Assembly: GCF_021018805.1 (NCBI RefSeq)
Contig: NW_026960612.1
Coordinates: forward strand, 372,001-436,000
DNA: 64,000 bases
Reading direction: 5' to 3'
Source of the DNA: Prinia subflava
Lineage: Eukaryota > Chordata > Aves > Passeriformes > Cisticolidae
Position 1 is the first letter of the stretch, and each line of letters begins with the position of its first letter. Made by a program: the position numbers and the translations under genes. Shown here piece by piece: positions 31,176 through 61,314 of this stretch. The notes below the pieces were generated by a model. It saw only the letters and a program-made list of their open reading frames with translations. It did not search any database and was not told where the DNA came from.

Positions 31176-31443
31176 TGTGAAAAATGTGAAACGATTAATT
31201 CGTGTTCTTATGGTAAATTGAAAAACTATAAAATTGTATAAATGTGTATTGGGTAAAGTCTATGTTTTAGGAGACCTTGTAGCAGATGGTGAAACTAACA
31301 ACCCTGAAAAAGCAGGCGCCACCATTCAGAAAGGAACAAAGGATTTATGGGAAAGCCTGCAGCCTTCTCAAGTACCGGGAGGAGACTCATCAAGATAAGG
31401 TGGCCCAGCGATCTACACCTTGGTTGACACCCTCACAAACTAT
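31176..31443 (+). mobile_element. Old solo LTR, left part (interrupted by provirus)
   Basis: It begins TGTGAAAAATGTG after the duplication AGAAT (31171-31175) and is cut at CTAT by the young provirus. It continues at 42333, so the intact element would have been about 669 bp. Confidence 0.8.
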
Positions 31444-32129
31444 TGTGAAAAAGGCTTGTTGTGTGTGTGTGGCTCTACGCAGATATTTACTATATGCAAT
31501 ATGCTAGGTAGAAAAGTTATGCTATATTAACATTTGAATAATATAGTAAATGTAGTTTTTAACATTAAGTTTTAGTAATAAAAGAATTGTGTGTAAGATA
31601 TTCTCTTTAGCTCAAGAAAAGAAAAAAAAAAGGGAGAGGCCCGGAGGTGTTTCTCAATAGAGATAACAGTTACAACAAGAAGAAGAGAACCCCCCCTTAG
31701 AATTTTCAGAAGAAAAGATGCATATCTCCCTGAATCCACAGGAGCCACCTGGTCAAGACAGACTGAATCCACACAAACCACCTGGTCAAGCCCAACTCCT
31801 GGACGCCAAGGATTAGAAGGGGGACTCTGGGCAAACGGGTCTGTCTTAAGATAAAGATTGCATAATTTTGAAATTTTTGTCTTCAAAAAGGGGACATTCC
31901 TCCCGAAGAGGGCCCTTCTCTTTCCTAGCCTTTGTCTGGGAGGGAGGGGGGACGACAGTCCGGACTGCCTTTTTTTTTTTTTTTCTTTGCTCTTAGTGTC
32001 TCATTATTTGTCCTGTCTCTGAAAACTTTTTTGAACTTTTATTATTGTATTATTTTTTTTTGTAACCAATTTTTATTCTTTATTAAATTTTCATAAATTT
32101 CAAAAAGCGAGTGATTGGCATTTATCACA
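31444..32129 (+). repeat. 5' LTR (686 bp)
   Basis: TGTGA...TCACA inverted ends. A CT/GA-rich U3, a G-rich block (GGGAGGGAGGGGGG-like) at about 31938-31955, a 15-T run, then TATTAAATTTTCATAAATTT near the end. I could not place an unambiguous TATA box. Confidence 0.95.
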
Positions 32130-32132
32130 ATT

Positions 32133-32150
32133 TGGTAGCAGAGGATGGTT
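32133..32150 (+). promoter_or_regulatory. Primer-binding site for initiator methionine tRNA
   Basis: TGGTAGCAGAGGATGGTT is exactly complementary to the last 18 nt (with CCA) of vertebrate initiator tRNA-Met. It lies 3 bp after the LTR. It would prime minus-strand DNA synthesis. This primer is unusual for a vertebrate retrovirus of this class. Confidence 0.85.
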
Positions 32151-33142
32151 AAATTACCCCACTGCTAAGAATAGAAAAGGGGAGACGCGTCCCGCCTGCA
32201 TTAGGCGGCCTCGGCTCTGTTCCTAGCAGAGTATCCCAGAAAGGGGTAAGATCCAAGGACAAAGGAGAGACAATAAGGCAAAGAGAAGGGAAAGAATTCC
32301 CTAAAATTCCGCGGTAGCTAGCTCATAACATCAACGTGTACACGAAGAATAAAGAACCAAGGACAACGGAGTGAGTAAGTAATTGCAGAGATTGAGGGGG
32401 TGGTTCTTGGCGCGGAACGGGGGCTGAAAGTGTGTGACTGAGAGGCGGGCTGGGGTAAAACCTGGACCTTCCAAGCGAGAGCGGAGTCTTCTATGCTGCG
32501 TTTTCGTTTTCCCGAGAGGGAGGTGGCCAGTACAAGGACGAAAGTGAATGGTAAAAAGGAGTGAGAGAACCCCCCCAGGGAGAAGGTAAAGTGTGTGAAA
32601 AGGGGACCCTAAAAACATAGGGTGGGTTGAAGAAAAATTCCAAGAGCACCCAGAATTTTAGCCGGGTTGAGGAAAATTCTGAGAGCACCCAGAGTTGTTT
32701 AATAACCAGCTGGATTGAATAATATCCAGAGAACACCCAGGGGTTTAGCTGGGTTAAGGGTATTCTAAGACATCCAGGGTTATATTAAATTCTGCAGAGT
32801 TTAGGGATATCCCTGAGAAACCTGGAGTATTGCCAGGTTGAGGGGGTGTCTGAAAAAAAATAGGAGCTGGCCAGGTACTCTTAAAGAGTGTACAAAGTTG
32901 TGTGGAACATAAAAGGTACCTTGTGGTTGTGATTGTCTTGTTGAATGTGAGACTGAGTGAAAAATAAAGTGGAGTGAATGTGGATGAATGATTTTTATTT
33001 TTTTAAGCTTTATTATAGCCTCTTGGAGGAAGTAAATCGTATTAAGAAGTAGTGTGAGAGAAAGGGAAAAAAGTAGCTTTTGAGGAGGTAAAGGGAAGCT
33101 GAACAGAGGCAAGGGGGGGTGGAGGAGAGAGAAAATTGAAAA
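32151..33142 (+). other. Proviral leader with candidate splice donor
   Basis: This is a 1-kb untranslated leader between primer site and gag. GGGGTAAGAT at about 32243-32252 (GT at 32246) is a possible major splice donor for env or accessory mRNAs. The 3' part is purine-rich up to the gag ATG. The packaging signal would be expected here. Confidence 0.55.
32619..32850 (+). repeat. Degenerate tandem repeats in the proviral leader
   Basis: Four to five units of about 40-50 bp share GGGTTGA-GG-AAATTC, then a GAGAGCACCCAG core. Cores begin near 32622, 32664, 32710, 32748 and 32833. CCAG/CTGG arms within and between units could form stem-loops. Confidence 0.7.
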
Positions 33143-35629
33143 ATGGGACAGAAATCCAGTAAGGAGAAGACAGGGAAGAAAAGAAAAAGTAAAAGACCAT
33201 TCACAGAAATTCCTCCAGATAGCGCGCTAGGAATCATGATAAATAATTGGGAAGAAAACCCTTGTACAAGAAAAAAGGATAAAATAAAGATGATACAATT
33301 TTGTATGCTAGAATGGCCAAGAGAGAAAATAAGATCTGATCACGTTTATTGGCCTAGATATGGTTCCTTTGAAAAATGGATTTGTCAGGCTTTAAATGAA
33401 TTTGTAAATTCAAAGGAAGAGAGTAATTTAGAAGAAAGAGATTATGCAACCTGTTGGACGGGTGAGTATAGGAAAATAAAAATATTTAAAATAACAGAAA
33501 CCCCTGGGACAAAACAGGGAAAGAAAACAGGGAAAGGGAAGGAAGGAAAACAGGAGAAAAAAGGAGAGAAGGAATGGGACCCTCTACAGTTTTTACCCCC
33601 TCCTTTTCAAAGCACACCTGCATTGCCAGAGTTAGGACCCGGTGAGAGTTCTCCCTCGGCCCCAATGTCGGAGCGGGTCCCTGCCCCAGCATACACCGCA
33701 GATACCTGCTTGACGTATAGTCTAGCCCCGGTTCCCCTCCCGGGCGCGGGTCCGCTTGGGATGGCAGCCCCAGCGGTGCCGGGTTCCTTCCCTCCCCCCC
33801 CGGTAACGGTCTCCTGTCTGCCTGAGGCGGCAGCGGGGGGAGGGGTCTCCACCCTTTCTCAACTGGCAGGGCTGGCTGGTTCGTCCTCTGCGATGGCGGC
33901 GGCAGCGGCGGGAAAGGTCCCTGTCCCGTCTCAGCTGGCGGGGGTGGCGGGTTCGCTCCCGCTTGCAGCAGCCGCTCGGTTCTTGCCCCCTTCACCCGCT
34001 ACCGGGGGTCCCCAAACTTTTCACCCAGCCACAGTAGTAGTGTCGCCAGCGGCGGCGGCTCCCGGCCCTCCTGGGATGGCGGCGGCAGCGGCGGCCTTTC
34101 CGCCCGCTGCGGTGGTGATGCCGCCGGCGGTGGCTGTTCCCCCCTCCCGTGCAGCAGCCGTGGGCCTTTTCCCTCCCCTTCTCCCTCCCGGCGGGGGCGG
34201 TGGGACCTTCCTCCCTTCCCCTCCCCCGGCGGCGGGGTCCTCGCTGCTGGCGTGCGGCGGGTGCCCGCCGGTCCCGTCCCTGGTGGCGTTGGCAGCGGTC
34301 CCGGCTCCTGCAATGCTGGATGCTGCCGCCACGGCCCCATCTTTGCCGGAGATGGCGGCCCCGGTCGCCATGGGCCGCGCTGGTGACCTAACCACATGGA
34401 GAAGACAGGAAATGACTTCCCCTTCAGAAGTTCTGGTGGCAAGCCCTGCCCATGCCCCACCTTTGGAGGACCAAAACTCAATAGTCAATCCTCCAAGGTT
34501 CCCACTTCCTGTTATGGGAACTGTTTCTATGGAAACCACGGCCGCTATGGTTAAAAAGAGCTTGTCGTCTCTGCCAGATGCCCCTTATAAAAATACTAGA
34601 AATGCAGTTAGGAAACAACTTTCTCCTGATTATTACTCACCACATGAAAACAAAACTAAAGAAAAGGAATGGGAAAAAGAAATCGGGCTATTTCCCCTAC
34701 GAGAGGTGCCCATGGGAGGGGGAGGAACGGGGTTCGTGAATGCTCCCCTGACCTCCTCTGAGGTTAGGAGTTTTAAAAAAGAAATAAAAGGGATTCTGGA
34801 AGACCCCATAGGTACAGCTGAACAGCTTGACCAATTCCTGGGACCAAATATCTATACTTGGGAGGAATTGCAGTCCATAACTAAGATATTATTCTCTCAT
34901 GAGGAAAGGCAAATGATCCGAGCAGCAGGAGTAAAAATATGGAATAGAGAACATCCCCAGGGACCCCCTGGAGAAGACATAATGCCAACAGAACCCCCAG
35001 AGTGGGGTCAGAATAATGAGGAAGGGAGGAAACGTATGAATGATTATCGCAATACATTAATCAAGGGAATAAAAGAGGCAGCCCCTCGAGGAGTAAATGC
35101 TAAAAAGGCCTTTGAAATACAACAGGGAAAAGAAGAGACCCCAACTGAATGGTTAGATCGACTTAGGAGAAATATAAAACAATATTCTGGAATAGATCCT
35201 GAAACTGAAGTGGGAAAAGCTTTATTGAGAATAAATTTTGTTACAAATGCTTGGCCAGATATTAGAAAAAAATTAGAAAAGATTGACGATTGGCATGGAA
35301 AACCATTAGATGATTTACTGAAGGAAGCTCAAAAAGTCTATGTTCGAAGGGATGAAGAACAAACTAAGCTACAGGCAAAAATTATGGCAGTTACTATGAG
35401 GGAAAACAATTCCCGGAGAAATAAAAGACACACAGGCACTGCTCCTAAATATGATGGTCATAGAGACAGGAGAATGGAAAAAAATAAAACCCCAACACAA
35501 ACAAAGCCACAAGGGCATCCCAGAAATGTCTGTTTTTTCTGTCAAGGTGAAGGACATTATAGAAGGGACTGTCCTAAACGGGCAAAAGATCTAAAAATCT
35601 TCAAAGAGATGAATACAGAGAGTGACTAG
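33143..35629 (+). CDS. gag: Gag polyprotein, 828 codons, gammaretrovirus-like
   Basis: ATG 33143 starts MGQKSSKEK, with Gly2 suitable for myristoylation. Residues 1-130 are a basic matrix (WPREKIRSDHVYWPRYGSFE). Residues about 150-420 form an Ala/Pro/Gly/Val-rich low-complexity insert coded by GC-rich DNA. Capsid follows at about 500-750 (LREVPMGGGGTGFVNAPLTS; major-homology-like TPTEWLDRLRRNIKQYSGID). One zinc knuckle CFFCQGEGHYRRDC starts at residue 797. The length exceeds the roughly 500-540 residues usual for gammaretroviruses, mostly through the insert. The frame is fully open and ends in TAG 35627-35629, with pro continuing in the same frame. No PTAP or PPxY late motif was obvious. Confidence 0.93.
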   Translation: MGQKSSKEKTGKKRKSKRPFTEIPPDSALGIMINNWEENPCTRKKDKIKMIQFCMLEWPREKIRSDHVYWPRYGSFEKWICQALNEFVNSKEESNLEERDYATCWTGEYRKIKIFKITETPGTKQGKKTGKGKEGKQEKKGEKEWDPLQFLPPPFQSTPALPELGPGESSPSAPMSERVPAPAYTADTCLTYSLAPVPLPGAGPLGMAAPAVPGSFPPPPVTVSCLPEAAAGGGVSTLSQLAGLAGSSSAMAAAAAGKVPVPSQLAGVAGSLPLAAAARFLPPSPATGGPQTFHPATVVVSPAAAAPGPPGMAAAAAAFPPAAVVMPPAVAVPPSRAAAVGLFPPLLPPGGGGGTFLPSPPPAAGSSLLACGGCPPVPSLVALAAVPAPAMLDAAATAPSLPEMAAPVAMGRAGDLTTWRRQEMTSPSEVLVASPAHAPPLEDQNSIVNPPRFPLPVMGTVSMETTAAMVKKSLSSLPDAPYKNTRNAVRKQLSPDYYSPHENKTKEKEWEKEIGLFPLREVPMGGGGTGFVNAPLTSSEVRSFKKEIKGILEDPIGTAEQLDQFLGPNIYTWEELQSITKILFSHEERQMIRAAGVKIWNREHPQGPPGEDIMPTEPPEWGQNNEEGRKRMNDYRNTLIKGIKEAAPRGVNAKKAFEIQQGKEETPTEWLDRLRRNIKQYSGIDPETEVGKALLRINFVTNAWPDIRKKLEKIDDWHGKPLDDLLKEAQKVYVRRDEEQTKLQAKIMAVTMRENNSRRNKRHTGTAPKYDGHRDRRMEKNKTPTQTKPQGHPRNVCFFCQGEGHYRRDCPKRAKDLKIFKEMNTESD
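35627..35629 (+). promoter_or_regulatory. gag UAG stop in a probable readthrough context
   Basis: GAC TAG GGA: TAG is followed by GG and the same frame stays open into protease. This is the gammaretroviral arrangement in which a fraction of ribosomes read UAG to make Gag-Pol. A downstream pseudoknot would be expected; I did not fold it. Confidence 0.7.
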
Positions 35630-35944
35630 GGAAGTCTCAGGCTCCATTTTCTAGGGGACAAATACCATCAAGAGCCTGTGATAACCCTAAAAGTGGGTCC
35701 CCAACCAGAAGAATTGATGTTTGTAGCAGACACGGGAGCAGAACGAACGTGTGTGATAAATATTCCCAAAGGTTATAAAGTAAGTAAAGAGACTGTAAAG
35801 GTAGTGGGTGCCAAAGGAGAAGGTTTTTCTGCTCCAATCATCAAAAATCTATTAATAGAGGGAGAAACTAGATTCTGGGTAGGAGATGTTTTGCTGGTCC
35901 CGGGGGCAGGCAGTAATTTATTGGGACGAGACTTCCAAATATAA
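35630..35944 (+). CDS. pro: Retroviral aspartic protease
   Basis: In the gag frame after UAG. It reads ELMFVADTGAERTCVINIPK, with active-site triad DTG, and ends with the conserved LLGRDF near 35925. The protease acts as a dimer to cleave Gag and Gag-Pol. TAA at 35942-35944 stops the frame directly after LGRDFQI, where family members read on into reverse transcriptase, so this is a lesion between protease and RT. The protease domain itself looks complete. Confidence 0.88.
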   Translation, partial: GSLRLHFLGDKYHQEPVITLKVGPQPEELMFVADTGAERTCVINIPKGYKVSKETVKVVGAKGEGFSAPIIKNLLIEGETRFWVGDVLLVPGAGSNLLGRDFQI

Positions 35945-38900
35945 TTAGGAATAGGAGTTATACCAGAAAATGGGAAGATGACAGCTAAAATATTAAAATT
36001 AGAACAGGAGGATGAAAAGAAAATTAAGAAGGAGGTATGGGCTGCTGAAGGAAATAGGGGAGGATTGAATATTGATCCCATAAAAGTTACAATTGAGAGA
36101 GAAGATTGTCCCATACGGGTGCGTCAGTATCCTATCTCATTAGAAGGACGGGAAGGTTTGAAGCCGGTAATAGAAGGACTGATAAGGGATGGTACACTAG
36201 AACCCTGTATGTCTCCTCATAATACCCCCATTCTTCCAGTAAAAAAGTCTGATGGAAGTTACAGGCTGGTACAAGATTTAAGGGAGGTAAACAAGAGAAC
36301 TCGGACTAGATATCCAGTTGTACCAAACCCCTATACTCTCCTAAGTAAGGTCCCTCCCCAGCATCAGTGGTTTAGTGTGGTGGACCTTAAAGACGCCTTT
36401 TGGGCTTGCCCATTAGCTGAGGAGAGCCAAGATATCTTTGCTTTTGAATGGGAGGACCCACAAACTGGGAGAAAGCAGCAATTGAGATGGACGAAATTGC
36501 CGCAAGGGTTTACTGAATCTCCGAACTTATTTGGGCAAGCTTTAGAAACCATATTACAAACTTTCCCCACTCCTCCTGGGATACAAGTCATTCAATATGT
36601 AGATGATCTCTTGCTATCAGGAGAAGTTGAAGCTGAAGTCAGAGAGGCTACTATAAAGCTTTTAAATTTTCTTGGAGAAAAAGGATTGAGGGTATCAAAA
36701 GGGAAACTGCAATTTGTGGAACCAGAGGTAAAATATCTTGGACACTTAATAAGTAAGGGAAATCGGAGGCTAAGCCCCGAAAGAATTGTGGGAATATTAG
36801 CCCTTCCCTCTCCCTCTTCTAAAAAGGAGATCAGAAAACTACTTGGGTTATTGGGATATTGTAGATTATGGATTGAAGGATACACACAGGCTGTAAAATT
36901 TTTATATAAAAAATTGACGGAGGGAGATGATATAAGATGGAACAAGGAAGATGAGGATAAATTAGGAAAACTGAAGTCAAAACTGGCCTCGATACCAGCT
37001 TTAAGCTTACCTTCACTAGCGAAACCCTTCTATCTGTATGTAAATACAGAAAAGGGGGTGGCTTATGGAGTTTTAGCTCAGGAGTGGGGAAGAGTAAAGA
37101 AACCAGTGGCTTATCTATCAAAAATGTTGGATCCAGTAAGCCACGGCTGGCCCGTATGTATCCAAGCTATAGCAGCTACTGCAATCCTAGTTGAAGAAAG
37201 TCGTAAACTGACTTTTGGAGGTAAACTAATTGTGTGCACGCCTCATGCAGTTCGAAATGTGTTAAACCAAAAGGCTGAAAAATGGTTGACAGACTCTCGG
37301 ATGCTAAAATATGAAGCGATCTTGATAGACAGTGATGATTTGACATTAGAAGTAAATAAAAGCCTGAACCCAGCTCAATTTTTATATGGGGAACCAACAG
37401 ATAACTTAATACATGATTGTCTAGAAATTATCCAATACCAGACAAAGATTCGAGAAGACCTTGAGGACCAGGCCCTTCTAGAAGGAGAAATAATTTATGT
37501 GGATGGATCCTCCAGATGCCTACAAGGGAAAAGAATGTCAGGATATGCAGTAATTGATGGGAAGAACATGCAAACTATTGAAAAAGGGAAATTACCTTCA
37601 AACTGGTCAGCTCAAACCTGTGAATTATATGCTCTAAAAAGGGCACTGGAACACTTAGCACGTAAAAGGGGTACAATTTACACTGACAGCATGTATTGCT
37701 TTGGAGTGGTACATACCTTTGGAAAAATTTGGGAAGAAAGAGGTTTGCTGAATTCAAGAGGAAAAGGATTAGTACATGAGGGGCTCATTTTAGAAGTCCT
37801 AGAAGCCTTAAAATTACCTGAAGAGATAGCTGTAGTACATATTAGAGGTCACCAAAAGGGAGTAACTCCAGAAGTAAGGGGAAATAATTTGGCAGATCAG
37901 GAAGCAAGGGATGCAGCAGAGAATGGAGTGGAAAAAGTAATGTTGGTATTAACTACCAATGAGGAGATGTTGGAAATTCCAAAATTTAGTGAAACAGAAG
38001 AAAAAGAATTGAAAGAGATAGGCAGTGAACAAGATGAATCAGGGAAGTGGAGACTTCCGGATGGAAGGCAAATACTCAATAAAATACTCACTAGAAGAAT
38101 ATTAGAAGACATGCATCAGAAAACTCATTGGGGCACTCAAGCTTTGTGTGATCATTTCTTAAGAAACTATGGGTGCATTGGGATTTATGGGGTAGCAAAG
38201 AAAATCACTGAAAGATGCATAACTTGTCAAAGGGTAAACAAGAAGGTAATGAGGAAAACCACATGGGGAGGTCGGGAATTAGCCTTAAGGCCATTTCAAA
38301 GTATTCAAGTAGATTTTACAGAACTCCCTCAAGTTCAAAGATGGAAATATCTATTAGTAATAACAGACCATCTAACTCATTGGGTGGAGGCAGTTCCCAC
38401 TACCAAAGCTACTGCTAACGTGGTAAGTAAAACCCTTTTGGAACAAATTATTCCAAGATATGGAATGATTAATAGAATAGATTCAGACAGAGGAACACAT
38501 TTTACGTCAAAAGTGTTACAACAATTAATTCAAGCTTTGGGGATAAAGTGGGAACTACACACCCCATGGCACCCACAAAGTTCAGGCCGAGTAGAGAGGA
38601 TGAACCAAACTTTAAAAAGAACTTTAACCAAATTAATAGTTGAAACCCGAATGTCATGGGTACAATGCTTGCCTTTAGCATTACTGAGAATTCAAACACA
38701 ACCCAGATCAGATCTGGGAGTGTCACCATATGAAATGATGTTTGGGTTACCTTTTCTGACCACCAAACATGAAAATGCTACTTATGAAGTAGGGGAAAGG
38801 AGTGTTAAGGGATATATTAACACAATTGCAAAAACTCTTGAGAATTTAAGACTAAAAGGAATAATCCCTCAAACCACCCCTTTAGACTTTAAAATCCATA

Positions 38901-39127
38901 ATATTCATCCAGGGGAGTGGGTATTAGTAAAGACATGGAAAGAACAATCTTTAACCCCACAATGGGAAGGTCCTTTTCAGGTATTGCTGACGACCGAGAC
39001 GGCAATCCGAACCAGAGAATGAGGGTGGATTCACGCCAACAGAATCAAAGGACCTGTGGAAAAGCCAAAGGAGTGGACGATATCCTCGGAGCCGGGTGAT
39101 ACGAAATTAACTTTTAAGCGAAAATGA
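35945..39127 (+). CDS. pol: Pol: reverse transcriptase, RNase H, integrase (two stops)
   Basis: It continues in the gag/pro frame after TAA 35942-35944. RT has the LPQGFTESPNLFGQAL block and catalytic YVDD at 36596-36607. RNase H has an Asp/Glu/Asp set (VDGSSRCLQGK, AQTCELYALKRAL, YTDSMYCFG). Integrase has the HHCC zinc region (DMHQKTHWG ... CITC), the DDE set (VDFTELP, IDSDRGTHF, SSGRVERMNQ) and a C-terminal GPF/Y-type motif (WEGPFQVLLTT). TGA at 39020-39022 cuts the last 35 codons; the original terminator is TGA 39125-39127. Everything between 35945 and 39019 is open. Function is lost or reduced unless the stops are bypassed. Confidence 0.93.
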
Positions 39128-39133
39128 GTAATA

Positions 39134-39694
39134 ATGAACTGGGAGGATCCGAATGATCCAAGAAACATACGCAGGGTTGAACCTGATTGGGGAGTTAAAC
39201 CGAACTTGCATCAGTGGTTTCAAATACCGCCCGGACAAACTTTGAGACACCTCCGGTACCCTCCCTGGGGAGGAGTACTGCCGCCACAAACAGGAGGATC
39301 GGGACTGTTTCGGACAGAAAACCCCTGTGTTTTGGCCTTAGCCTGTGATTTATATAAGGAGGGGGGTGAATTACAACCTTATTCATTGCCATGCCAAATA
39401 CCCTGTTTGATTCACCCGAATGCTAGACATGCTAGTTGGTTTAAATGTAAGTGTTTGAGCTGTGGAAAAAATTGGTACTGTAGTTCACACAAACGACGTT
39501 CTCGTTGCATAAAGTGTAGATTGTCACCTGAGCCCCCTATCCAAACAGAACTTGAAGCAACTGAAATAATAACTTGGTTGTGTGGATGGGAATTATTAGT
39601 GCCTGTTGAACGGGAGATAGCTGAGGAAAAGTGGGAGACCACTGTTAAGGAGTGTCAGAAACGATTTGCCTGGAAATTAGCTAAAAGAAAGTGA
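39134..39694 (+). CDS. Unknown Cys-rich accessory ORF between pol and env
   Basis: This is a 186-codon ORF, ATG 39134 to TGA 39692-39694. It starts 6 nt after the pol terminator, in the pol frame, and overlaps the open frame of env. I recognise no family. Residues 1-64 are Trp/Pro-rich and acidic, then basic. Residues 65-128 hold ten Cys, with C87-x3-C91, C105-x-C107-x2-C110, C116-x2-H119 and C125-x2-C128, a pattern suggesting one or two zinc sites. A basic patch lies at 120-124 (KRRSR), and the C-terminus is helical, charged and ends KRK. There is no signal peptide or membrane segment. The position matches that of accessory genes in complex retroviruses. A short ATG frame (39124-39156) precedes it, and a possible splice acceptor (ttaacttttaag) ends at 39119. 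It could instead be captured host sequence. Confidence 0.75.
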   Translation: MNWEDPNDPRNIRRVEPDWGVKPNLHQWFQIPPGQTLRHLRYPPWGGVLPPQTGGSGLFRTENPCVLALACDLYKEGGELQPYSLPCQIPCLIHPNARHASWFKCKCLSCGKNWYCSSHKRRSRCIKCRLSPEPPIQTELEATEIITWLCGWELLVPVEREIAEEKWETTVKECQKRFAWKLAKRK

Positions 39695-39783
39695 CAATAG
39701 CCGAGAGGGCAAGACCAGATTGGCCCCTATATTCGCCACCAAGAAGATCACATACACCTGCTGTGGGCTGCAACCCCATAGGC

Positions 39784-41598
39784 ATGGGAGGTGGGAGTAT
39801 AAGCCATACTGGACCTCTGCTGGTTCTGTCACTCATTTTCTGGCTCTTCCCATTTGGAGAATTGACCAGGCCATGCTACAGGTGTCACCGAACACTGTAT
39901 ATGCAAAGACACCGAGGCTCCTTCTTTATTTCTCACACTCATGTCAACAGTCACTGTTATCACCTTTCCACATTAGGACACTGCAAGCACAATGGAAAAA
40001 ATTACTGGGTTGCAGAAAATTTAGGGGGACGTGAATGCCCAGAAGGAGAGAAATGGATGTGTTTCACATACATTACTGGGAATAAAGCAAAGGATTTGGT
40101 AAAAGAACAATTGATAGACAAAAAAATTAGGCCAACACCACCACCTAAACCTGTACCAATCTCACTTGATGGTTTGTATAAGAAATTGGAACAACAATTA
40201 GAGAAAGAAATAGATATTTCTCAGGTGGGTAAAAATCTGTTTGTAGAACTGGGAGAAAGAATAAGCAAGGAACTTAACGTAACCAATTGTTGGGTCTGTG
40301 GAGGGGCTTTGATGTCAGAAGAATGGCCGTGGAAAGGCAGCAGCTTAGGCCCAATTGAGCTTCTTAAGTGGAACCAAACAAGTATAAGGGGAGAAAATCG
40401 GCCAGGGGGATGGATTTTAAGTTCAGTAGTCATAGGGGAAGAATGTCTTTGGCATAAAGGGAAAAAGTTCACCCATGAAGTAGGAAAAACTCCCTGTAAA
40501 AGATATAAGGTTAGTAATGGAACCTCTGTATGGTGGATCCCAGAAGAACCTACTATGTATTGGATCCAGAAAAAAGAAAAAGGAAATTGTAAATATAATA
40601 ATAAAATCAGGCTTTTTCAATGTAATGATACAGGAAAAAATCCCTATGTTGGCATCCCAGAGATTTCTAAATTTTGGGAAAATATGGATGAGCAAAAATT
40701 GGGTTACTGGAAAGCTCCAGACGGTTTGTTCTGGATATGTGGGAAAAGGGCATATCCAGAACTTCCCCCCAAGTGGAAAGGGAGCTGTACTCTGGGTGTC
40801 ATACAACCAGGATTTTTTCTTTTGCCCGGACCTGAAGGGGACCACTTAGGGATACCAGTTTATGAGAATCTAAAAAGAAGCAAGAGAGATGTAATTGGAG
40901 GATTCCAAAAATGGGGAGATGATGAGTGGCCCCCTGAACGCATACTGGCAACATATGGACCAGCCACCTGGGCACAAGATGGGAGTTGGGGATATCGAAC
41001 TCCCATTTATATGTTAAATCGTATCATAAGGCTTCAGGCGGTTGTAGAGATAATAACAAACAAAACTGGTCGGGCAATAGAACTAATATCCAGACAACAA
41101 ACTCAAATCAGAGCAGCTGTGTATCAAAATAGATTAGCCCTGGATTACCTGTTAGCTGAAGAAGGGGGCGTTTGTGGAAAATTCAATACATCGGATTGTT
41201 GTTTAAAAATAGATGACAATGGAGATGCTGTCCTGGATATAGTCAATGATATTAGAAAAATCGCCCATGTACCAGTTCAGAAGTGGGAATCCATGTTAAG
41301 TACCAGCTGGTGGGATAATGTACTAGGAATAGAATGGTGGAAGAAACTAGGTTTTTTCCTCTTATGTGCTACAGCTGGTTTAATATTCCTCCCTTGTTTG
41401 ATCCCTTGTTTCATTCGACTTATCACTAGTGTAGTTCAAGGAATGCAATTAGTGACCATGGATCAAAGGATGGATACAACAAAAACGGTGCAAAGGATTA
41501 TGGTATTAAAGAAACAAGATAGAGTAGAAGATCCCCTCCAGGAAGCTAGACTGATTTATGAAAAAAATGAATGTAGAATAGATGCAGGAAAGCAGTAA
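39784..41598 (+). CDS. env: Envelope glycoprotein, open, 604 codons
   Basis: The first ATG in frame is 39784, although the frame is open from 39691. A signal peptide follows (LLVLSLIFWLF). The surface subunit carries a CWVC (CxxC) motif at 40289-40300, typical of gamma-type Env with isomerisable SU-TM disulfide. A furin-type site RSKR is at residues 365-368 (40876-40887). The transmembrane subunit starts DVIGGFQKWGDDEW, without the usual long hydrophobic fusion peptide. It has heptad-repeat helices, QNRLALDYLLAEEGGVC and a C-x7-CC motif (C at residue 464). A Trp-rich membrane-proximal part (WWDNVLGIEWWKKL), one membrane span (FFLLCATAGLIFL) and a cytoplasmic tail follow. No stop or frameshift is seen. 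It would mediate receptor binding and fusion. Confidence 0.92.
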   Translation: MGGGSISHTGPLLVLSLIFWLFPFGELTRPCYRCHRTLYMQRHRGSFFISHTHVNSHCYHLSTLGHCKHNGKNYWVAENLGGRECPEGEKWMCFTYITGNKAKDLVKEQLIDKKIRPTPPPKPVPISLDGLYKKLEQQLEKEIDISQVGKNLFVELGERISKELNVTNCWVCGGALMSEEWPWKGSSLGPIELLKWNQTSIRGENRPGGWILSSVVIGEECLWHKGKKFTHEVGKTPCKRYKVSNGTSVWWIPEEPTMYWIQKKEKGNCKYNNKIRLFQCNDTGKNPYVGIPEISKFWENMDEQKLGYWKAPDGLFWICGKRAYPELPPKWKGSCTLGVIQPGFFLLPGPEGDHLGIPVYENLKRSKRDVIGGFQKWGDDEWPPERILATYGPATWAQDGSWGYRTPIYMLNRIIRLQAVVEIITNKTGRAIELISRQQTQIRAAVYQNRLALDYLLAEEGGVCGKFNTSDCCLKIDDNGDAVLDIVNDIRKIAHVPVQKWESMLSTSWWDNVLGIEWWKKLGFFLLCATAGLIFLPCLIPCFIRLITSVVQGMQLVTMDQRMDTTKTVQRIMVLKKQDRVEDPLQEARLIYEKNECRIDAGKQ

Positions 41599-41630
41599 AT
41601 ACTGCTCGAGCCAAAATTATTATAAAAAGC

Positions 41631-41642
41631 AAGAGGAGGGAT
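41631..41642 (+). promoter_or_regulatory. Polypurine tract
   Basis: AAGAGGAGGGAT directly before the 3' LTR, the plus-strand primer for reverse transcription. Confidence 0.85.
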
Positions 41643-42328
41643 TGTGAAAAAGGCTTGTTGTGTGTGTGTAGCTCTACGCAGATATTTACTATATGCAATA
41701 TGCTAGGTAGAAAAGTTATGCTATATTAACATTTGAATAATATAGTAAATGTAGTTTTTAACATTAAGTTTTAGTAATAAAAGAATTGTGTGTAAGATAT
41801 TCTCTTTAGCTCAAGAAAAGAAAAAAAAAAGGGAGAGGCCCGGAGGTGTTTCTCAATAGAGATAACAGTTACAACAAGAAGAAGAGAACCCCCCCTTAGA
41901 ATTTTCAGAAGAAAAGATGCATATCTCCCTGAATCCACAGGAGCCACCTGGTCAAGACAGACTGAATCCACACAAACCACCTGGTCAAGCCCAACTCCTG
42001 GACGCCAAGGATTAGAAGGGGGACTCTGGGCAAACGGGTCTGTCTTAAGATAAAGATTGCATAATTTTGAAATTTTTGTCTTCAAAAAGGGGACATTCCT
42101 CCCGAAGAGGGCCCTTCTCTTTCCTAGCCTTTGTCTGGGAGGGAGGGGGGACGACAGTCCGGACTGCCTTTTTTTTTTTTTTTCTTTGCTCTTAGTGTCT
42201 CATTATTTGTCCTGTCTCTGAAAACTTTTTTGAACTTTTATTATTGTATTATTTTTTTTTGTAACCAATTTTTATTCTTTATTAAATTTTCATAAATTTC
42301 AAAAAGCGAGTGATTGGCATTTATCACA
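41643..42328 (+). repeat. 3' LTR (686 bp)
   Basis: Identical to the 5' LTR over 686 bp except for one base (A instead of G after the TGTGTGTGT run, at about 41670). Followed by CTAT. Confidence 0.95.
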
Positions 42329-42332
42329 CTAT

Positions 42333-42884: not shown

Positions 42885-43466
42885 CTACTTCTTGAGTTTC
42901 TTTTGAGCAGCTTTCTTCTTGACCATTTGTAGCCTTTTCATGGCGCTGAGCTGGGATTCCTGTGAGGTGGGGCCCTTCACGGATGCTGGCTGGTTGCTGG
43001 TGTCAGCCACGGCTTTGCCGTCGCCGCCCGCACTGCTCCCCACAGAGCCACCGCTGCCGTTGCTGCCGCCGGCCTGGCTGCTGGTGCTGGGGGCGGCGCT
43101 GCTGGGGCTGGGCAGCCCGGCCTTGCTCAAGTTGTCGCTGCTCACCGAGTGGCTCAGTGTCGTCTTCCCCAGGGTCGGCGGCGGGGGAGGCTTCAGCTGA
43201 ACGGGGTTTGTGCTGTTGTTGGCAGAAGCTATTTTGGCCCCCAGTCCTGTTTTTGAAGTTGCCAGGCCTGATAAACCCACGGGTTTCTGGTTATTTGAAG
43301 AACCTGCAGGTTTCCCGCCGGCACTCTGTACTGTCGATACCAGTTTGGCAGTTGATGGGTTGGCAGAGGAGGTTTTGGCTGCAAATGCAACCCATCCTGT
43401 AAGGCCACTCGTTGCTGAAGAGGAAACACTTGCACTGGCAGAGTTCCCCGAAAGTGCTGCTAAGGT
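42885..43466 (-). CDS. INTS12: INTS12 last coding exon: Ser-rich C-terminus
   Basis: On the minus strand, acceptor ttatttattttag precedes 43466, and the exon is 582 nt (194 codons, phase 0), ending TAG 42887-42885. It encodes the Ser/Thr/Pro/Gly-rich tail of Integrator subunit 12, including [40 protein letters not shown], and the conserved end [24 protein letters not shown]12 is a nuclear PHD-finger subunit of the Integrator complex, which cleaves nascent RNAs at snRNA and other genes. The frame is intact. The GC-rich CpG-containing middle gives shadow frames on the other strand. Confidence 0.97.
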
Positions 43467-45178: not shown

Positions 45179-45931
45179 TGTCTTTGGTTGAAAAATGTAA
45201 CCAAAAATGTGTATTCTGTTTTGATCTGTTGAAACCAGTTGGGAGATATTGTTCTTTATCTCTTGTAACTCTAGGGGGCAGAAGAGGGCAGATGCCTTCT
45301 GTTAATGGGACAACTGATAACACCAGATAAGGCAGTGCCTTCTTATCTCTTCCTCCACCCATCCTCCTCCGAAGGACATCACCTGTGAATGGGCCATTTA
45401 AGGCCTCTCACATGACTGATAAGGTTACTTCATTCCATTGTGAGATGCTCCACTCAGTGGGAGGAGCCAAAGCCTTTCCACTAGCATAAAACCTGCAATC
45501 CCAAACACCAATATAGCCGGTTTTCCACTGAATTCTCAGAGGAAGACTGGACCCATCTCGCCAGCACTGGACCCTTTTTTCTACAGGATCATCTTTACTT
45601 CACAGAACAACATCTGTCACTCCAGGACTTAGTTCAGACTGCTTCCAACACCCTGACAACAGGGTGTCAGGTCATATCCCTGACTCTGTCAGGGTTTTCT
45701 AGGACCTTTGTTTTTTTGCTTGTTTGGGGTTTTTTTTTTGGTACTACTGCATTTGTATATATTTTTTTTATATTCCTAGTAAAGAAATTGCTATTCCTAT
45801 TCCCATATTTTTGTCTGAAAGCTCCTAATTGCAAAATTGTAATAATTTGGAGGGAGGGGGCTTTTACATTCTCAATTCCAAGGGAAACTCCAGTTTTCCC
45901 TGACAGATACCTGTCTTTCCAAACCAAGTCA
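45179..45931 (+). repeat. 5' LTR of ERV-L
   Basis: TGTCTTTGG...CCAAGTCA; 753 bp. Homologous to 51113-51864 and to the copy at 9977. Confidence 0.9.
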
Positions 45932-45936
45932 TAATT

Positions 45937-45954
45937 TGGTGTCCAAGGTGGGGT
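45937..45954 (+). promoter_or_regulatory. Primer-binding site, Leu-tRNA type
   Basis: TGGTGTCCAAGGTGGGGT begins 5 bp after the LTR. TGGTGTC and the GTGGG core fit tRNA-Leu sites, the primer after which ERV-L is named; the match is imperfect. Confidence 0.6.
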
Positions 45955-46039
45955 ATGAGGGCATTGAGAAAAGGAGTAACAGTTCTTGGGTGACTTAGGT
46001 TTTTGTGTACTAGATATAGAGGCCTTGTTGGACAGCATC

Positions 46040-47880
46040 ATGTCGTCTAGTTTGCCCTGGTTTGGGTGGCATGTGGTTGTGGCTGTGTTTCTGCCATTTG
46101 CAGGCCCTTATCTAAACATGGGCCCTATAACTAAGGCTACTATGGCTGTTATCCAGTTTATTTTATGGGTTAATAAGGTGAGGAATTAATGGATTTTTAA
46201 CTTCCTCTGGAAGGCAGGCACATGGATTCAGAGCTATCACACCCTAACTGTGTGTTTTGGGGGTTACTTTAACAATGGTACCCACTGTGAGGAAATGACA
46301 CCGGGGGAAATTTTTTCCCAACCCTTCACCCAGCTCTTTAGGTCTACCCTACCAGTTTTTGAATGGTTTAAATCTTCTCTGAATGCTAATGATATCATAC
46401 AATGGCTGGTATTGCTTAGAGGCCACTTAATCTATTTTGCATTCAGAGATAAGGGGAGATTGACCTGGATAACCACCCTGATACTTACCCCAGAGAATAA
46501 GGATACTACCCCAGAGCCTGACCCTGCCCAACAGCCCGCCTCAGAGATAAACCACCTGGACTGGGTGAAGGAGATAGGTGAGACGGGCCAGATGCTAAGG
46601 GAGTACATTTCCCCTGTGGTAGCCTCATTAGCCCCAGCTGATGGGAAACCCTACCCCTGCCCTGACAAAGGAGAGTCTGATGGTGCAGCAGTGGAACCCA
46701 CAGACTTTACAACCATCCAGGTTCCAGCTGAACCACGGGGGCAGTCACAGCCAGCAGCAGTCGCCCCTGTGGAAACAAAGAAGTCTAAGGTGAAATCGGC
46801 AAACTTAGGTAATAAGGATAAGAAAGGAGGGCCCTCACAACCCACAGGGGAGCCTCAGGTTGAGATCATCACCGAGTCCCTGTCGTATGAAAGTCTCAGT
46901 AATCTGCAAAAAGATATTGGACAACGGGGACATGAGGCTTATACAGCCTGGTTACTTTGGGTCTGGGACCTTATGGGTCTAGTGTGTGACTAGATAGTGG
47001 TGAGGCAAGGAATTTGGGACCCTTGACCCAGGACTCAGGTTTGAATCAGGTATTTTTAAGGGAGCCAGGGCCAGGGCCCCTTTCCTTTGGGAGCGCCTTT
47101 TGATGAGTGTAAGGGAGAAGTTTGTCCACAGAGAAAGAATGCAGGTACACCACCATAGAATGCGCTGGAAGACTCTTGTGGAAGGGATCCAACCGCTGAG
47201 GGAAATAACGGTATTAGAAGTACTTTTTGGGAGGAGCAGACAGCACGATAATGACCCCAATAAGGTTAGGTGCACTGGGCAAATGTTGTGGAATCTGGCA
47301 ACTCTAGGACCATCTCAATACACCACATTCATTGCATCAATTAATGCTGAGGACAACCGACAGAGTGGGTTCTGTAGCCAACAAGCTCAGAAATTATGAG
47401 AGTATGATCAATGGCCCAATGCAGGCTCATGTCTCTGCCTTGGTTAAGAAACTTAAAGAGGAGATGAGGGAGCTGAGGGAGGAGATGAGGAGGAACAGTT
47501 CCCACGTGGCACCGGTGTGAGTTACAGGCCCCAAAATCAGAGCCCAACGTCCCCCAGCTAGAGAGAGAGGGTACACGCCATGAGCTGACCTGTGGTTTTT
47601 TCTGCGCGACCATTGGGAAGACATGGGAGTGTGGCATGGGAAACCCACTTCTGTCCTAGCAGCACGGGTGTGTGAGCTTAAGGAGAGAAACACTAACCGA
47701 GGGGGTTCCGCTAGAATGAAGGTAGCCTCAGCCTCCCATGACCAAACCACCAGGTATTACAAAAGTGAGGATGCTGTGTTGGATCCCCTTGAAGGAAGCT
47801 CTACTATGTATGCACATGAAGGGAATAGTAACCAGTGCTCGAGGGGCCCTGCCTCTAGCCAGGAAGAGGCACAGGAAAAC
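46040..47880 (+). pseudogene. gag: ERV-L gag, degraded
   Basis: ATG 46040 starts a hydrophobic N-terminal segment (WFGWHVVVAVFLPFAG), stopped by TAA 46187-46189. The same frame continues to 46993 with FAFRDKGRLTWITTLILTPE, a Pro/Glu-rich linker, and ESLSYESLSNLQKDIGQRGH, a motif typical of ERV-L Gag. From about 47000 to 47880 the frame is broken, with capsid-like pieces such as RMRWKTLVEGIQPLREITVL at 47160. The hydrophobic N-terminus recalls membrane association of class III Gag but could be part of the leader. It cannot make a full protein. Confidence 0.7.
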
Positions 47881-47929
47881 TGAGTCTTTTGGACTGTGTG
47901 GATTTGATGGCCTGGCACATCAGAGCCAC

Positions 47930-48180
47930 AGAAATATGAAGCTTTGGTTGATACTGGTTCGCAGTGTACCCTAATGCCGTCAGAACATGAGGGAACAGAA
48001 CCTATTTCCATTGCTGGGGTAACAGGGGGATCACAAGAATTTACTCTGTTGGAAGCCGAGGTGAGCCTGACTAGGAAGGAGTAGCAGAAACATCTGATTG
48101 TGACTGGCCCAAAGTCTCTGAGTATTCTGGGCATAGACTTTCTCAGGAATGGCTATTACAGAGACCCTAAGGGACTCAGG
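47930..48180 (+). pseudogene. pro: ERV-L protease, degraded
   Basis: LVDTGSQCTLMP with the DTG triad at 47950-47958, and SILGIDFLRNGYY near 48120 as the C-terminal protease motif. Stops at about 48082 and 48181 break the frame. Confidence 0.75.
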
Positions 48181-49560
48181 TAGACTTTTGGAATAGCTGC
48201 CGTGGAGGCAGAGGACATTAAGAAATTGAACACCTTGCCTGGACTATCAGAGAACCCATCTGCAGTAGGACTCCTGAAGGTAGAAGAGCAACGAGTACCT
48301 GTTGCCACCTCGACGGTGCATCGCCGGCAGTATCAGACGAATCGAGATGCCGTGATCCCCATTCACAAGATGATCCGAGAGCTGGAGAGCCTAGGGGTGG
48401 TCAGCAAAACCCACTCACCCTTCAATAGCCCCATTTGGCCTGTGCACAAGTCTGACGGAGAATGGAGACTGACTGTGGACTATCGGGCCTTGAATGAAGT
48501 GACACCACCACTGAGCGCTGCCATGCCGGATATGCTGGAACTTCAGTATGAGTTGGAGTCCAAGGCGGCAAAGTGGTACGCCACAACTGACATTGCTAAC
48601 ATGTTTTTCTCCATTCCTTTGGTAGTAGAATTCAGGCCTCAGTTTGCTTTCACCTGGAGGGGAGTGCAGTACACCTGGAACTGATTGTCCTATGGGTGGA
48701 AACACAGCCCCACCATCTGCCATGGACTATCTCATGCTGCACTGGAAAAGGGTGAGGCTCCGGAACATCTACAGTACATCGATGACATCATTGTGGGGGG
48801 GAATACGGCAAGAGAAGTGTTTGAGAAAGGAGAGAAGATCATCCAGATTCTCCTGGAAGCCAGTTTTGCCATCAAGAAGAGCAAAGTCAAGGGACCTGCC
48901 AAAGAGATCCAGTTCCTGGGATTAAAGTGGCAAGACGGACGGCATCAGATTCCCACTGAGGTCATCAACAAGATCACCGCAATCTCTCTACTGACCAGCA
49001 AGAAGGAAACACAAGCTTTCCTAGGTGCCATAGGCTTTTGGAGAATGCACATTCCTGAGTACAGCCAGATTGTGAGCCCTCTCTACCTGGTTACCTGCAA
49101 GGAGAACGATTTCCAATGGGGCCCTGAACAGCAGCAAGCCTTTGCCCAGATCAAGCAGGAGATTACTCATGCTGTAGCCCTTGGCCCAGTCAGGACAGGA
49201 CCAGATGTGAAGAACGTGCTCTACTCTGCAGCTGGGAACCACGGTCTGTTCTGGAGCCTTTGGCAGAAGGTGCCTGGTGAGACTCGAGGCCGACCACTGG
49301 GATTCTGGAGGTGAAGTTACAGAGAGTCCGAAGCCAACTGCACTCCCACAGAGAAGGAAATCTTCGCTGCTTACGAAGGAGTTCAAGCTGCCTCGGAAGT
49401 GACTAGCATGGAAGCACAACTCCTCCTGGAACCCTGACTATGGGTGGATGTTCAAAGGAAAGGTTCCCTCTACCCACCACGCCACCAATGCCACATGGAG
49501 CAAATGAATTGCTCTCATCACTCAGCATGCCCGTATTCAAAACCCGAACTGCCCTGGGAT
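48181..49560 (+). pseudogene. pol: ERV-L reverse transcriptase, degraded
   Basis: The RT fingers and palm read SPFNSPIWPVHKSDGEWRLT, VDYRALNEVTPPL and WYATTDIANMFFSIPL. The catalytic motif is YIDD at 48775-48786, then the connection region (FLGLKWQDGRHQIPTEVINK, FLGAIGFWRMHIPEYSQIV). TGA 48682-48684 interrupts the palm, and another stop at about 49312 is followed by further damage. The spuma/ERV-L character is clear from VDYRALNEVTPP and YIDD. Confidence 0.88.
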
Positions 49561-51027
49561 TTTGGAAGTAATTACCAACTGGCCAGAAAGTGAAAACTTT
49601 GATCTCACCAATGAAGAGGAACAAGAGCAAGTGACACATGCTGAAGAAGCTCCACCGTATAATCAGCTGCCAGCAGAAGAAACACGCTATGCACTTTTCA
49701 CTGATGGTTCTTGTCGCTCCGTAGGGATGAACCGGAAGTGGAAAGCTGCCGTATGGAGCCCCACACAACAGGGTGCATAAGCCACTGAAGGAGAAGGTGG
49801 ATCGAGTCAACTTGCGGAACTCAAGGCTATTCAGTTGGCCCTGGACATTGCTGAAAGAGAGAAGTGGCCAAAGCTCTACCTATACACTGATTTGTAGATG
49901 GTAGCCAATGCTCTGTAGGGTTGGCTGGAAAAGTGGAAAAAGGCGAACTGGCAGCGTAGGGGAAAAGCAATCTGGGCTGCTGATGAGTGGAAAGACATTG
50001 CTGCTCGGGTAGAGAAGCTACCTGTAAAAGTCCGCCATGTAGATGCCCACGTCCCCAAGAGTTGGGCTAATGAGGAGCACCAAAACAATGAGCAAGTAGA
50101 TCAAGCTGCGAAGGTAGAAGTGTCAAAGATAGACCTAGATTGGCAACACAAGGGAGAGTTGTTCCTAGCACGATGGGCCCATGATGCCTCAGGTTATCAG
50201 GGCAGAGGTGCCACCTATAAGTGGGCACGTGACCGAGGGGTGGATCTAACCATGGACAGCATTTCTCAGGTTATCCATGACTGCGAGACGTGTGCTGCAA
50301 TCAAGCAGGCCAAGCAAGTGAAGCCCCTATGGTATGGCAGGCGGTGGTCCAAATATAGGTATGGGGAAGCCTGGCAAATTGACTACATCACCCTTCCCCA
50401 AACCTGCCAAGGCAACCGCTACATACTGACCATGGTGGAAGCCACCACTGGATGGCTGGAAACCTACCCTGTGCCTCACGCTACTGCCCGGAACACCATC
50501 CTGGGTCTGGAAAAGCAAGTCCTGTGGAGACATGGCACCCCTGAGAGAATCGAGTCAGACAATGGGACCCATTTCTAGAACAGCCTCATAAACACCTGGG
50601 CCAGAGAACATGGCATTGAATGGATATATCACATCCCTTATCATGCACCAGCTGCTGGGAAAGTTGAACGGTGCAATGGACTACTTAAGACTACCCTGAA
50701 GGCACTTGGCAGAGGGACCTTCAAGGATTGGGAAATGAACTTAGCGAAAGCCACCTGGATGGTCAACACCCGAGGCTCCATCAATAAAGCTGGTCCTGCC
50801 CAGTCTGAACCCTAGCACACAGTGGATGGAGATAAAGTCCTTCTGGTACACATGAAAGGTATTTTAGGAAAGACTGTTTGGATAAACCCCACCTCAGGCA
50901 AGGGCAAACCCATCTGTGGGATTGTTTTTGCTCAAGGACCTGATTATGCTTGGTGGGTAATGCAGAAAGATGGAGAAACCTGTTGTGTGCCACAGGGAAA
51001 CCTAATCTTAATTGAGAATTGTGTATA
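49561..51027 (+). pseudogene. pol: ERV-L RNase H and integrase, degraded
   Basis: RNase H has YALFTDGSCRSVGMNRKW, ELKAIQLALDIAEREKW and a truncated YLYTDL, with stops near 49778, 49897 and 49916. Integrase has a zinc region (DCETC at about 50279), catalytic Asp in YGEAWQIDYITLPQTC, SDNGTHF at 50560-50575 followed at once by TAG, and AAGKVERCNGLL with the Glu. The C-terminus ends at TAA 51025-51027. No dUTPase or env follows; the polypurine-like AAGGGGTGGATAA precedes the 3' LTR. Confidence 0.85.
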
Positions 51028-51112
51028 AGGTTTCATTGTGTATGTATATATATAAAATAGAGTTTATTGATTTGGATATGATACAAATGATAATAGAATA
51101 AGGGGTGGATAA

Positions 51113-51864
51113 TGTCTTGGGTTGAAAAATGTAACCAAAAATGTGTATTCTATTTTCATCTGTTGGAACCGGTTGGGACATATTGTTCTTTATCTCTTGT
51201 AACTCTAGGGGGGGAAGAGAGCAGATGCCTTCTGTTAATGGGACAACTGATAACACCAGATAAGGCAGTGCCTTCTTATCTCTTCCTCCACCCATCCTCC
51301 TCCGAAGGACATCACCTGTGAATGGGCCATTTAAGGCCTCTCACATGACTGATAAGGTTACTTCATTCCATTGTGAGATGCTCCACTCAGTGGGAGGAGC
51401 CAAAGCCTTTCCACCAGCATAAAACCTGCAATCCCAAACACCAGTATAGCCGGTTTTCCACTGAATTCTCGGAGGAAGACCGGACACATCTTGCCAGCAC
51501 TGGACCCTTTTTTTCTACAGGATCATCTTTACTTCACAGAACCACATCTGTTACTCCAGGAGGACTTATTTGGACTGCTTCCAACACCCTGACAACAGGG
51601 TGTCAGGTCATATCTCTGACTCTGTCAGGGTTTTCTAGGACCTTTGTTTTTTTGCTTGTTTGGGGTTTTTTTTTTTGTACTACTGCATTTGTATATTTTT
51701 TTATATTCCTAGTAAAGAAATTTCTATTCCTATTCCCATATTTTTGTCTGAAAGCTCCTAATTGCAAAATTGTAATAATTTGGAGGGAGGGGGCTTTTAC
51801 ATTCTCAATTCCAAGGGAAACTCCAGTTTTCCCTGACAGATACCTGTCTTTCCAAACCAAGACA
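51113..51864 (+). repeat. 3' LTR of ERV-L
   Basis: TGTCTTGGG...CCAAGACA; 752 bp, with perfect 8-bp inverted ends. Confidence 0.92.
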
Positions 51865-51908: not shown

Positions 51909-52371
51909 AAGAGATTCACAGAATGGTGTGGGCAGGAAGGGACCCTAAAGATCATCGTGTTCCAACCCTCCTAGTATGGGCAAGAATGCCACCTCCTAGA
52001 TAAGATTATATTTAAGAAGCTCCTAAATTAAATTTCACAGAGTCAGGAACACTTCCCCTACTGTGAAATCATAGAACCATCTAGCCAGAAAAGACCTTCA
52101 AGATCATTAAATCCAAGGCCACTTTTGCCATGAGAAAAAGCCTTCCAAGTGTCAAAATACATCTAAGTTACTTGAGGAGAGAGAGCAAATAATGTATTTC
52201 ATATGATTCATAGAATCATAGAATGGTTCAGGTTCTGGAAAGGACTTTAAAGATCATCTAGTTTCAACCCCCTGCCATAGGCAGGGATGACTTCCACTAG
52301 ACCAGATTGTTCACAGCCCCACCCAGCCTGGTCTTGAACTCTTCCAGGGATGGGGCATTCACATGTGAAGT
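51909..52371 (-). mobile_element. CR1 LINE fragments in reverse orientation
   Basis: Three CR1 3'-end pieces start near 51915 (TTCACAGAATGG), 52070 (AAATCATAGAACC) and 52208 (TTCATAGAATCATAGAATGG). Each has the AAGG(A/G)AC...AAAGATCAT block. The last is interrupted at 52372 by a solo LTR. Three starts in 300 bp imply separate insertions or rearrangement. Confidence 0.88.
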
Positions 52372-52764
52372 TGTTGGTGGAGGGTTAAAAAAATATAATT
52401 TCTGGATTGAGTAATGTGTAGGGGGAGGAAAGTAGAGAACGTACAACTGGAACTTGACGCAGCTAGCTGGGAACAAGCGTCAGCTTCTGTAAACAGCTCC
52501 ATGCTATTGTTTTAACCAAATCAAGTGTGGATCAGGGTAGAAGCGTAGGTATGATTTAAGATAGTAACTAAGGAATAGGATAATCAGTATCTAGGGGTGG
52601 GGGTTAGTTAACATGTGTATAATTTAAACTATAAAAATCACGAATCGACTCTGTATCCTTTGGACATCAGATTTGGGTGTATTATCACCCCTGTGTCCCA
52701 CGCGCTGGAATAAAGAACCGCATATGATCGCCTTTGTGTGGTTATATGTTTTCCTACGCTAACA
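52372..52764 (+). mobile_element. Solo LTR (393 bp) of the same family as the provirus at 53605
   Basis: TGTTGGTGG...GCTAACA, flanked by AAGT at 52368-52371 and 52765-52768. It is nearly identical to the LTRs of the provirus 0.84 kb away, but its own 4-bp duplication shows an independent insertion later reduced by LTR-LTR recombination. Confidence 0.95.
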
Positions 52765-52955
52765 AAGTGAGGTGTTTTCCCCATTCTTTCAGTGCTCATG
52801 CAAAGCCACTATGCTGTGGTACTACTCAGTCCACACGGTGTAGGAGACTATTTTCAATTATGGTTCTTATGTGAAAAGATTGGTGTAGTTGAGAAAAACC
52901 CTATTATCTGTGCAGTGAAACAAACTCTTCCTCTGGTAAATTTAAATTACATTAC

Positions 52956-53108
52956 CTTGACTTCTGTTCTCTTGAATGCCAGAAAAGCTGGTGGGGTCTC
53001 AGGTTTTAACTTCATTTCTGGTTTCTTGACCAATGGATCTTGCAAAGCTGGTGCAACTGAAACCACCACAGGAGCTGGTTTTTGAGGTGGTTTTTTTGTT
53101 TTCTGAGC
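52956..53108 (-). CDS. INTS12: INTS12 exon following the PHD exon
   Basis: On the minus strand, acceptor tacttatacag precedes 53108 and donor gtaatg follows 52956; 153 nt, 51 codons, phase 0. It encodes [40 protein letters not shown] and [11 protein letters not shown], a basic, Pro-rich linker between the PHD finger and the Ser-rich tail. It joins in phase to 42885-43466. Its flanking introns are expanded by the ERV-L and class I proviruses. Confidence 0.95.
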
Positions 53109-53604
53109 CTGTATAAGTAGTAGGAAAAAAACCCCCTGAATTACTTATGGGACACATAACATGAACTGTTGTGACTGTTAACAAAAAGCACGAGCATTTT
53201 AAGATTGCAATCTAGACTTTATAATTTCAGCTTTAATGGTCCCTAAAATGAGGTAATAGGGGATGTGGAGATATGCTGGCTATGGTACTGGGGGCAGGGT
53301 CCAGCCAAAAAGCATCCTGAATAGAACTTTCTAGTTCAGCATGGAAAGAGTGTCAGTGTTGATGCTTGGAGAGCAGGAAAGCACTGGGCCTTTACAGGAA
53401 AAAGGCAAAGACAGGTGAACTTGCAGAAGACAAGGACATAGTCCAGCAGTACTGGGATGTAGGCTGTAAGTCTGCTAAAAAGTGGCAGGCAAAATGGCAG
53501 AATTCATGCCGAAACAAAACAAAGAAAGGTCATACTGAAGGCAACTGCTCAACAGCTAAATTGGCTACCCTGTGCAGGAACTGACCTCAAGCAAACACTC
53601 TTCT
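53109..53604. other. INTS12 intron
   Basis: Nothing recognised besides ordinary intron sequence. The target duplication TTCT (53601-53604) marks the provirus on the right. Confidence 0.6.
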
Positions 53605-53996
53605 TGTTGGTGGAGGGTTAAAAAATGTAATTTCTGGATTGAGTAATGTGTAGGGGGAGGAAAGTAGAGAACGTACAACTGGAACTTGACGCAGCTAGCT
53701 GGGAACAAGCGTCAGCTTCTGTAAACAGCTCCATGCTATTGTTTTAACCAAATCAAGTGTGGATCAGGGTAGAAGCGTAGGTATGATTTAAGATAGTAAC
53801 TAAGGAATAGGATAATCAGTATCTAGGGGTGGGGGTTAGTTAACATGTGTATAATTTAAACTATAAAAATCACGAATCGACTCCGTATCCTTTGGACATC
53901 AGATTTGGGTGTATTATCACCCCTGTGTCCCGCGCGCTGGAATAAAGAACCGCATATGATCGCCTCTGTGTGGTTATATGTTTTCCTACGCTAACA
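53605..53996 (+). repeat. 5' LTR of the hypermutated provirus
   Basis: TATAAAAA at 53862-53869, AATAAA at 53941-53946, ends TGTTGGTGG...GCTAACA. Confidence 0.95.
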
Positions 53997-54000
53997 TTTT

Positions 54001-54018
54001 TGGCGACCCAGATGGGAC
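54001..54018 (+). promoter_or_regulatory. Primer-binding site, possibly tRNA-Arg
   Basis: TGGCGACCCAGATGGGAC starts 4 bp after the LTR. It resembles Arg-type sites, but I cannot confirm an exact tRNA. Confidence 0.6.
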
Positions 54019-61310: not shown

Positions 61311-61314
61311 TTCT

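Follow-up and report, generated by a model that had tools for sequence, protein, structure and literature searches.

Does an open reading frame (ORF) located between pol and env of a gamma-like endogenous retrovirus in the genome of Prinia subflava represent an additional gene? Gammaretroviruses are the textbook simple retroviruses. The ORF was examined in a 64,000-nucleotide (nt) stretch of contig NW_026960612.1 (RefSeq assembly GCF_021018805.1; positions 372,001 to 436,000, forward strand), referred to here as the window, and all coordinates are those of the window.

39134 to 39694, forward strand: the extra ORF, an ATG-initiated frame of 186 codons encoding 186 amino acids (aa)

This is a genuine, if unusual, extra frame, and it is probably coding. 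It is a separate intact frame outside gag, pol and env, and the explanation preferred here, though we regard it as an even call, is that it is an accessory gene specific to one lineage of class I (gamma-like) retroviruses, located between the end of pol and env.

The position of the ORF was examined relative to the two genes that flank it.

35678 to 39127, forward strand: pro-pol, in the gag frame, with in-frame stops at 35942–35944 and 39020–39022 and its natural end at TGA 39125–39127
39784 to 41598, forward strand: env from its first ATG (TLV_coat, 1.6e-10), with a CX7CC motif in the transmembrane (TM) part

The ORF starts 6 nt after the pol TGA, shares the gag-pol frame and is open throughout its 186 codons, exactly as described in an earlier reading of this DNA (the original prediction), and the two pol stops reported there are also present. 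The ORF was further said to abut the env frame; it does overlap the open env frame, which begins at 39691, by 4 nt, but the first env ATG lies downstream, leaving 89 nt between the end of the ORF and the likely env start. The distance from the pol stop to the env start is 656 nt, most of which is occupied by the ORF. The ORF ATG has an A at position -3, and the single other ATG in 39104–39133 is at 39124.

In simulations using a dinucleotide-Markov model with the composition of 39128–39783, where the longest open run is 188 codons, an open run of at least 187 codons in any plus frame was obtained in only 1 of 20,000 sequences. Codon usage was scored with a codon table built from gag, pol and env of the provirus, and that of the ORF resembles the usage of these genes: its score of 0.197 was the highest of the six frames and was equalled by 18 of 4,000 stop-free simulations, while 45 of 4,000 led the remaining two plus frames by as wide a margin. 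Three observations weigh against a coding role. Three-base composition periodicity was not significant (1,267 of 4,000 simulations), the ORF frame was not the best by codon usage in the middle third of the ORF, and the codon test is limited in power: in 21 held-out windows of gag, pol and env, it put the true frame ahead of the other plus frames 13 times.

The window contains another gamma-like provirus at 52.4–61.3 kb (52371–61312), in which pieces of gag, pol and an env-like frame are present, and this allowed a comparison of the pol-env junction. Its pol frame, interrupted by stops at 58863 and 58890, terminates at 59052 in a tail that looks, by eye, comparable to that of the ORF-bearing provirus. 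An open frame with an ATG at 59045 overlaps this pol end, with no intervening segment. That frame (59003–59365) found no match in Pfam and is called env-like from its position and a hydrophobic stretch. In the ORF-bearing provirus, an ATG is found at about the same site (39124, with the stop at 39125) but opens only 10 codons; the extra ORF, in a different frame, starts 10 nt further on.

39124 to 39156, forward strand: 10-codon frame in the env frame, near the place of the first env-like ATG of the sister provirus

As the env-like frame of the sister overlaps its pol stop and the pol tails look comparable by eye, the pol-env segment seems to be extra relative to the sister provirus, which appears to be without it. 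The two proviruses share 48% identity in a reverse transcriptase piece and 51% in an aligned integrase piece. In the sister, an LTR-like repeat occurs three times (52371, 53604 and 60919; 97–99% alike; LTR, long terminal repeat), and the gag frame matched Gag_MA at the cut-off and RVP, with Gag_p30 under the cut-off. Searched on its own, its integrase piece matched neither rve nor MLVIN_C in Pfam, and its TM piece scored slightly below the cut-off for TLV_coat (6.2e-05) and carries CX9CC where the ORF-bearing provirus has CX7CC.

The ORF-bearing provirus itself is a young class I (gamma-like) endogenous retrovirus with all of its parts in order.

31440 to 31443 and 42329 to 42332, no strand: 5' and 3' copies of the target-site duplication CTAT, flanking the LTRs
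31444 to 32129, forward strand: 5' LTR (TG...CA), from LTR-LTR alignment
32133 to 32150, forward strand: primer-binding site, read from the sequence
33143 to 35629, forward strand: gag, 828 aa (Gag_p30, 5.5e-28; one zf-CCHC stretch), ending in UAG followed by G
41643 to 42328, forward strand: 3' LTR, from LTR-LTR alignment

The class I features are the 4-bp target duplication, the TG...CA LTRs, gag and pol in one frame with the UAG-G gag stop between them, and a single nucleocapsid zinc knuckle. Gag_p30, the MLV-type integrase end and the TLV-type env all exceeded curated Pfam cut-offs, and separate open pieces of pro-pol matched RVP, RVT_1, RNase_H, rve and MLVIN_C, whereas the last 34-aa piece of pol taken alone had no Pfam match. 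CX6CC in TM is typical of gamma-type env; as the motif found here is CX7CC, the element is called gamma-like and not a gammaretrovirus. The primer-binding site resembles the complement of the 3' end of the initiator tRNA-Met. Between LTR and gag, the leader (32130–33142; about 1 kb) contains short imperfect repeats, seen by eye, and gag includes a long Pro/Ala/Gly-rich stretch at 33600–34500 with open frames on both strands.

The LTRs match at 687 of the 688 sites in the aligned block (31442–32129 against 41641–42328) and differ at one. For an insertion of this age, the expected numbers of changes in the ORF are about 0.41 for substitutions and 0.025 for nonsense mutations. The original prediction took the retention of an open frame as a sign that the ORF mattered until recently, a conclusion that does not hold, because the insertion is too young for decay and openness is uninformative on selection after it. 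What the openness does say is that the parent element carried the ORF open. The two nonsense codons in pol are unexpected at the LTR age (0.115 expected; probability of two or more, 0.006), and at 5.57 LTR differences, taken as an upper Poisson bound, the probability of two or more is 0.14. One or both stops may already have been present in the parent, with other copies supplying the proteins for its mobilisation; an error in the assembly is another possible source.

The N-terminus of the predicted product is rich in Pro and Trp. A Cys/His core lies next to a basic patch, and two helices are predicted at the C-terminus. Cys residues are at 65, 71, 87, 91, 105, 107, 110, 116, 125 and 128, with others at 150 and 174, and His residues are at 94, 99 and 119, with others at 26 and 39; the Cys and His spacings listed previously were reproduced exactly.

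39446 to 39517, forward strand: Cys/His core from C105 to C128, with C107-x2-C110-x14-C125-x2-C128 and a KRRSR patch

Clustering of Cys is modest (8 in 45 aa were reached by 598 of 20,000 permutations), and with this many Cys residues the presence of two CxxC motifs can be explained by chance (2,952 of 20,000). C107, C110, C125 and C128 have the zinc-ribbon spacing of CxxC-x(about 14)-CxxC. In Pfam, Ribosomal_S27 matched below the curated cut-off (E 0.084; 13.2 bits against 22.3). When the core piece was used to search PDB, the 10 sequences listed included four eS27, two eS31 and one labelled ubiquitin-L40 (E 0.25–0.65), and two further were zinc fingers. The eS27 and eS31 ribosomal zinc ribbons share CxxC-like knuckles with His and basic residues between them, but at E values of only 0.25–0.65 this is not evidence of kinship. 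The core possibly binds zinc, a reading based on the one C-x2-C-x14-C-x2-C spacing and these sub-threshold ribosomal matches. The nuclear or RNA-binding role suggested in the original prediction is likewise no more than possible.

No significant relative was found in Pfam, NCBIfam or PDB, with vertebrate proteomes and animal genomes outside the search. A single-sequence model of residues 81–186, of low confidence, placed strands around the core together with the two helices, and gave no fold match at E 0.001. As the searches returned no animal retrovirus and the host genome lay outside them, the lack of homologues is weak evidence of novelty.

If the ORF is an accessory gene, it would be made from a subgenomic spliced RNA. 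Splice acceptors were scored with simple matrices over the 796 AG sites in the provirus interior.

38895 to 38912, forward strand: candidate splice acceptor upstream of the ORF, ranked 13 of 796 and the best in 38300–39800
39324 to 39341, forward strand: candidate acceptor within the ORF, which would give env alone, ranked 22 of 796

An acceptor near 39119 had been proposed, but the site at 39118 ranks only 306 of 796, well behind these two. An acceptor in the 3' end of the integrase region, such as 38912, would place the ORF before env, but four ATGs (38935, 38962, 39019 and 39124) lie between it and 39134. A 54-codon ATG frame at 38935–39099, which contains three ATGs and overlaps the 3' end of pol in another frame, is a possible obstacle to scanning from 38912. 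Env could depend on an acceptor within the ORF, of which 39341 is an example, or on leaky scanning; we infer this scheme throughout from the sequence. In the protein, C107, C110, C125 and C128 could hold one zinc in a ribbon beside the basic patch, and the product would most likely be a small protein that binds nucleic acid or a host factor and acts in regulation or in interaction with the host. The fuller proposal, that this is a recently active complex gamma-like retrovirus whose own regulatory gene, located between pol and env, encodes a basic, two-helix zinc-ribbon protein of no known family, is tentative and on balance rather unlikely.

If true, a young class I provirus with a dedicated gene would mean that this group, too, gained regulatory or host-interacting genes, and would provide a new protein family for testing a role in retrovirus-host conflict. 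Given how recently the element inserted, further copies may exist in the host or its kin.

Alternatively, the segment may be a host coding fragment captured between pol and env, which had drifted or was uncharacterised from the start. There is a published precedent at the same position, as the crocodilian endogenous retrovirus CrocERV29 is reported to carry a captured KIT ligand ORF between pol and env, gained without loss of retroviral domains (PMC4299795). However, the ORF in CrocERV29 is a recognisable host cytokine, in copies described under the consensus SFV1-21_Gav (PMC4299795), whereas the element here is class I and no host parent was recognised. Base composition in part fits a foreign origin, since 39234–39419 has an A content of 0.25 and only one of the 32 windows covering 35700 to 41651 is lower, but that window (0.23) is in the start of env and another low window (0.27) is in pol. 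With no significant match in Pfam, NCBIfam or PDB, vertebrate proteomes being outside that search, we consider capture of a host fragment improbable.

It is somewhat less probable that the segment is either spacer that is not translated or coding sequence that has decayed, such as a remnant of an earlier env start, and that its frame is open by chance. The single copy, the lack of a homologue in the databases searched and the non-significant periodicity fit this reading, but the simulated open runs and, in part, the codon usage argue for a coding frame, and the ORF frame differs from that of env.

The ORF could also extend Pol at its C-terminus, either because TGA 39125 is read through or because this stop arose by a recent nonsense change; the ORF shares the pol frame and is open from the codon after the stop. 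In MuERV-L, an extra domain, a dUTPase, likewise follows integrase (PMC1224870), but that is a known enzyme domain, whereas the ORF here lies behind the pol TGA and had no dUTPase match in Pfam. JSRV orf-x and the additional pol ORF of XtERV-S are comparable as extra ORFs with no known role near the end of pol, but they lie inside the integrase region, that of XtERV-S in another frame (PMC8278194), and the ORF here is downstream of pol. The ORF has its own ATG, and Pol of the sister provirus ends, by eye, at a comparable place. No notable fold was detected after the TGA when only nested folding was considered (z -0.13; 87 of 200 shuffles as good), and the fold after the gag UAG, used for comparison, was itself not strong (z -1.20; 23 of 200), so the folding test is weak either way. 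An extension of Pol has little chance of being correct.

The lentiviral genes vif, vpr, tat and rev lie between pol and env. The ORF is like them in position, in small size and in its expected spliced expression, but no sequence match to them was found and gag, pol and env here are gamma-like. A Rev/Rex-like RNA export factor or Tat-like transactivator, with a basic RNA-binding patch, a zinc core and a hydrophobic stretch near residues 144–154 as export signal, would fit the KRRSR patch beside the Cys core and the lentivirus-like gene position, but is very unlikely, as such short motifs are common, the export signal was read by eye and there was no sequence or fold match.

Other features were also noted in the window. 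A third element at 45179–51861 has LTR-like repeats that are 96% alike and RVT_1 and rve pieces, and a repeat at 9977–10472 that is related to these LTR-like repeats may be a solo LTR. An open frame on the minus strand (42885–43280), without a Pfam or PDB match, resembles the C-terminal exon of a host gene, possibly INTS12; it lies about 560 bp from the 3' LTR of the ORF-bearing provirus and in the opposite orientation.
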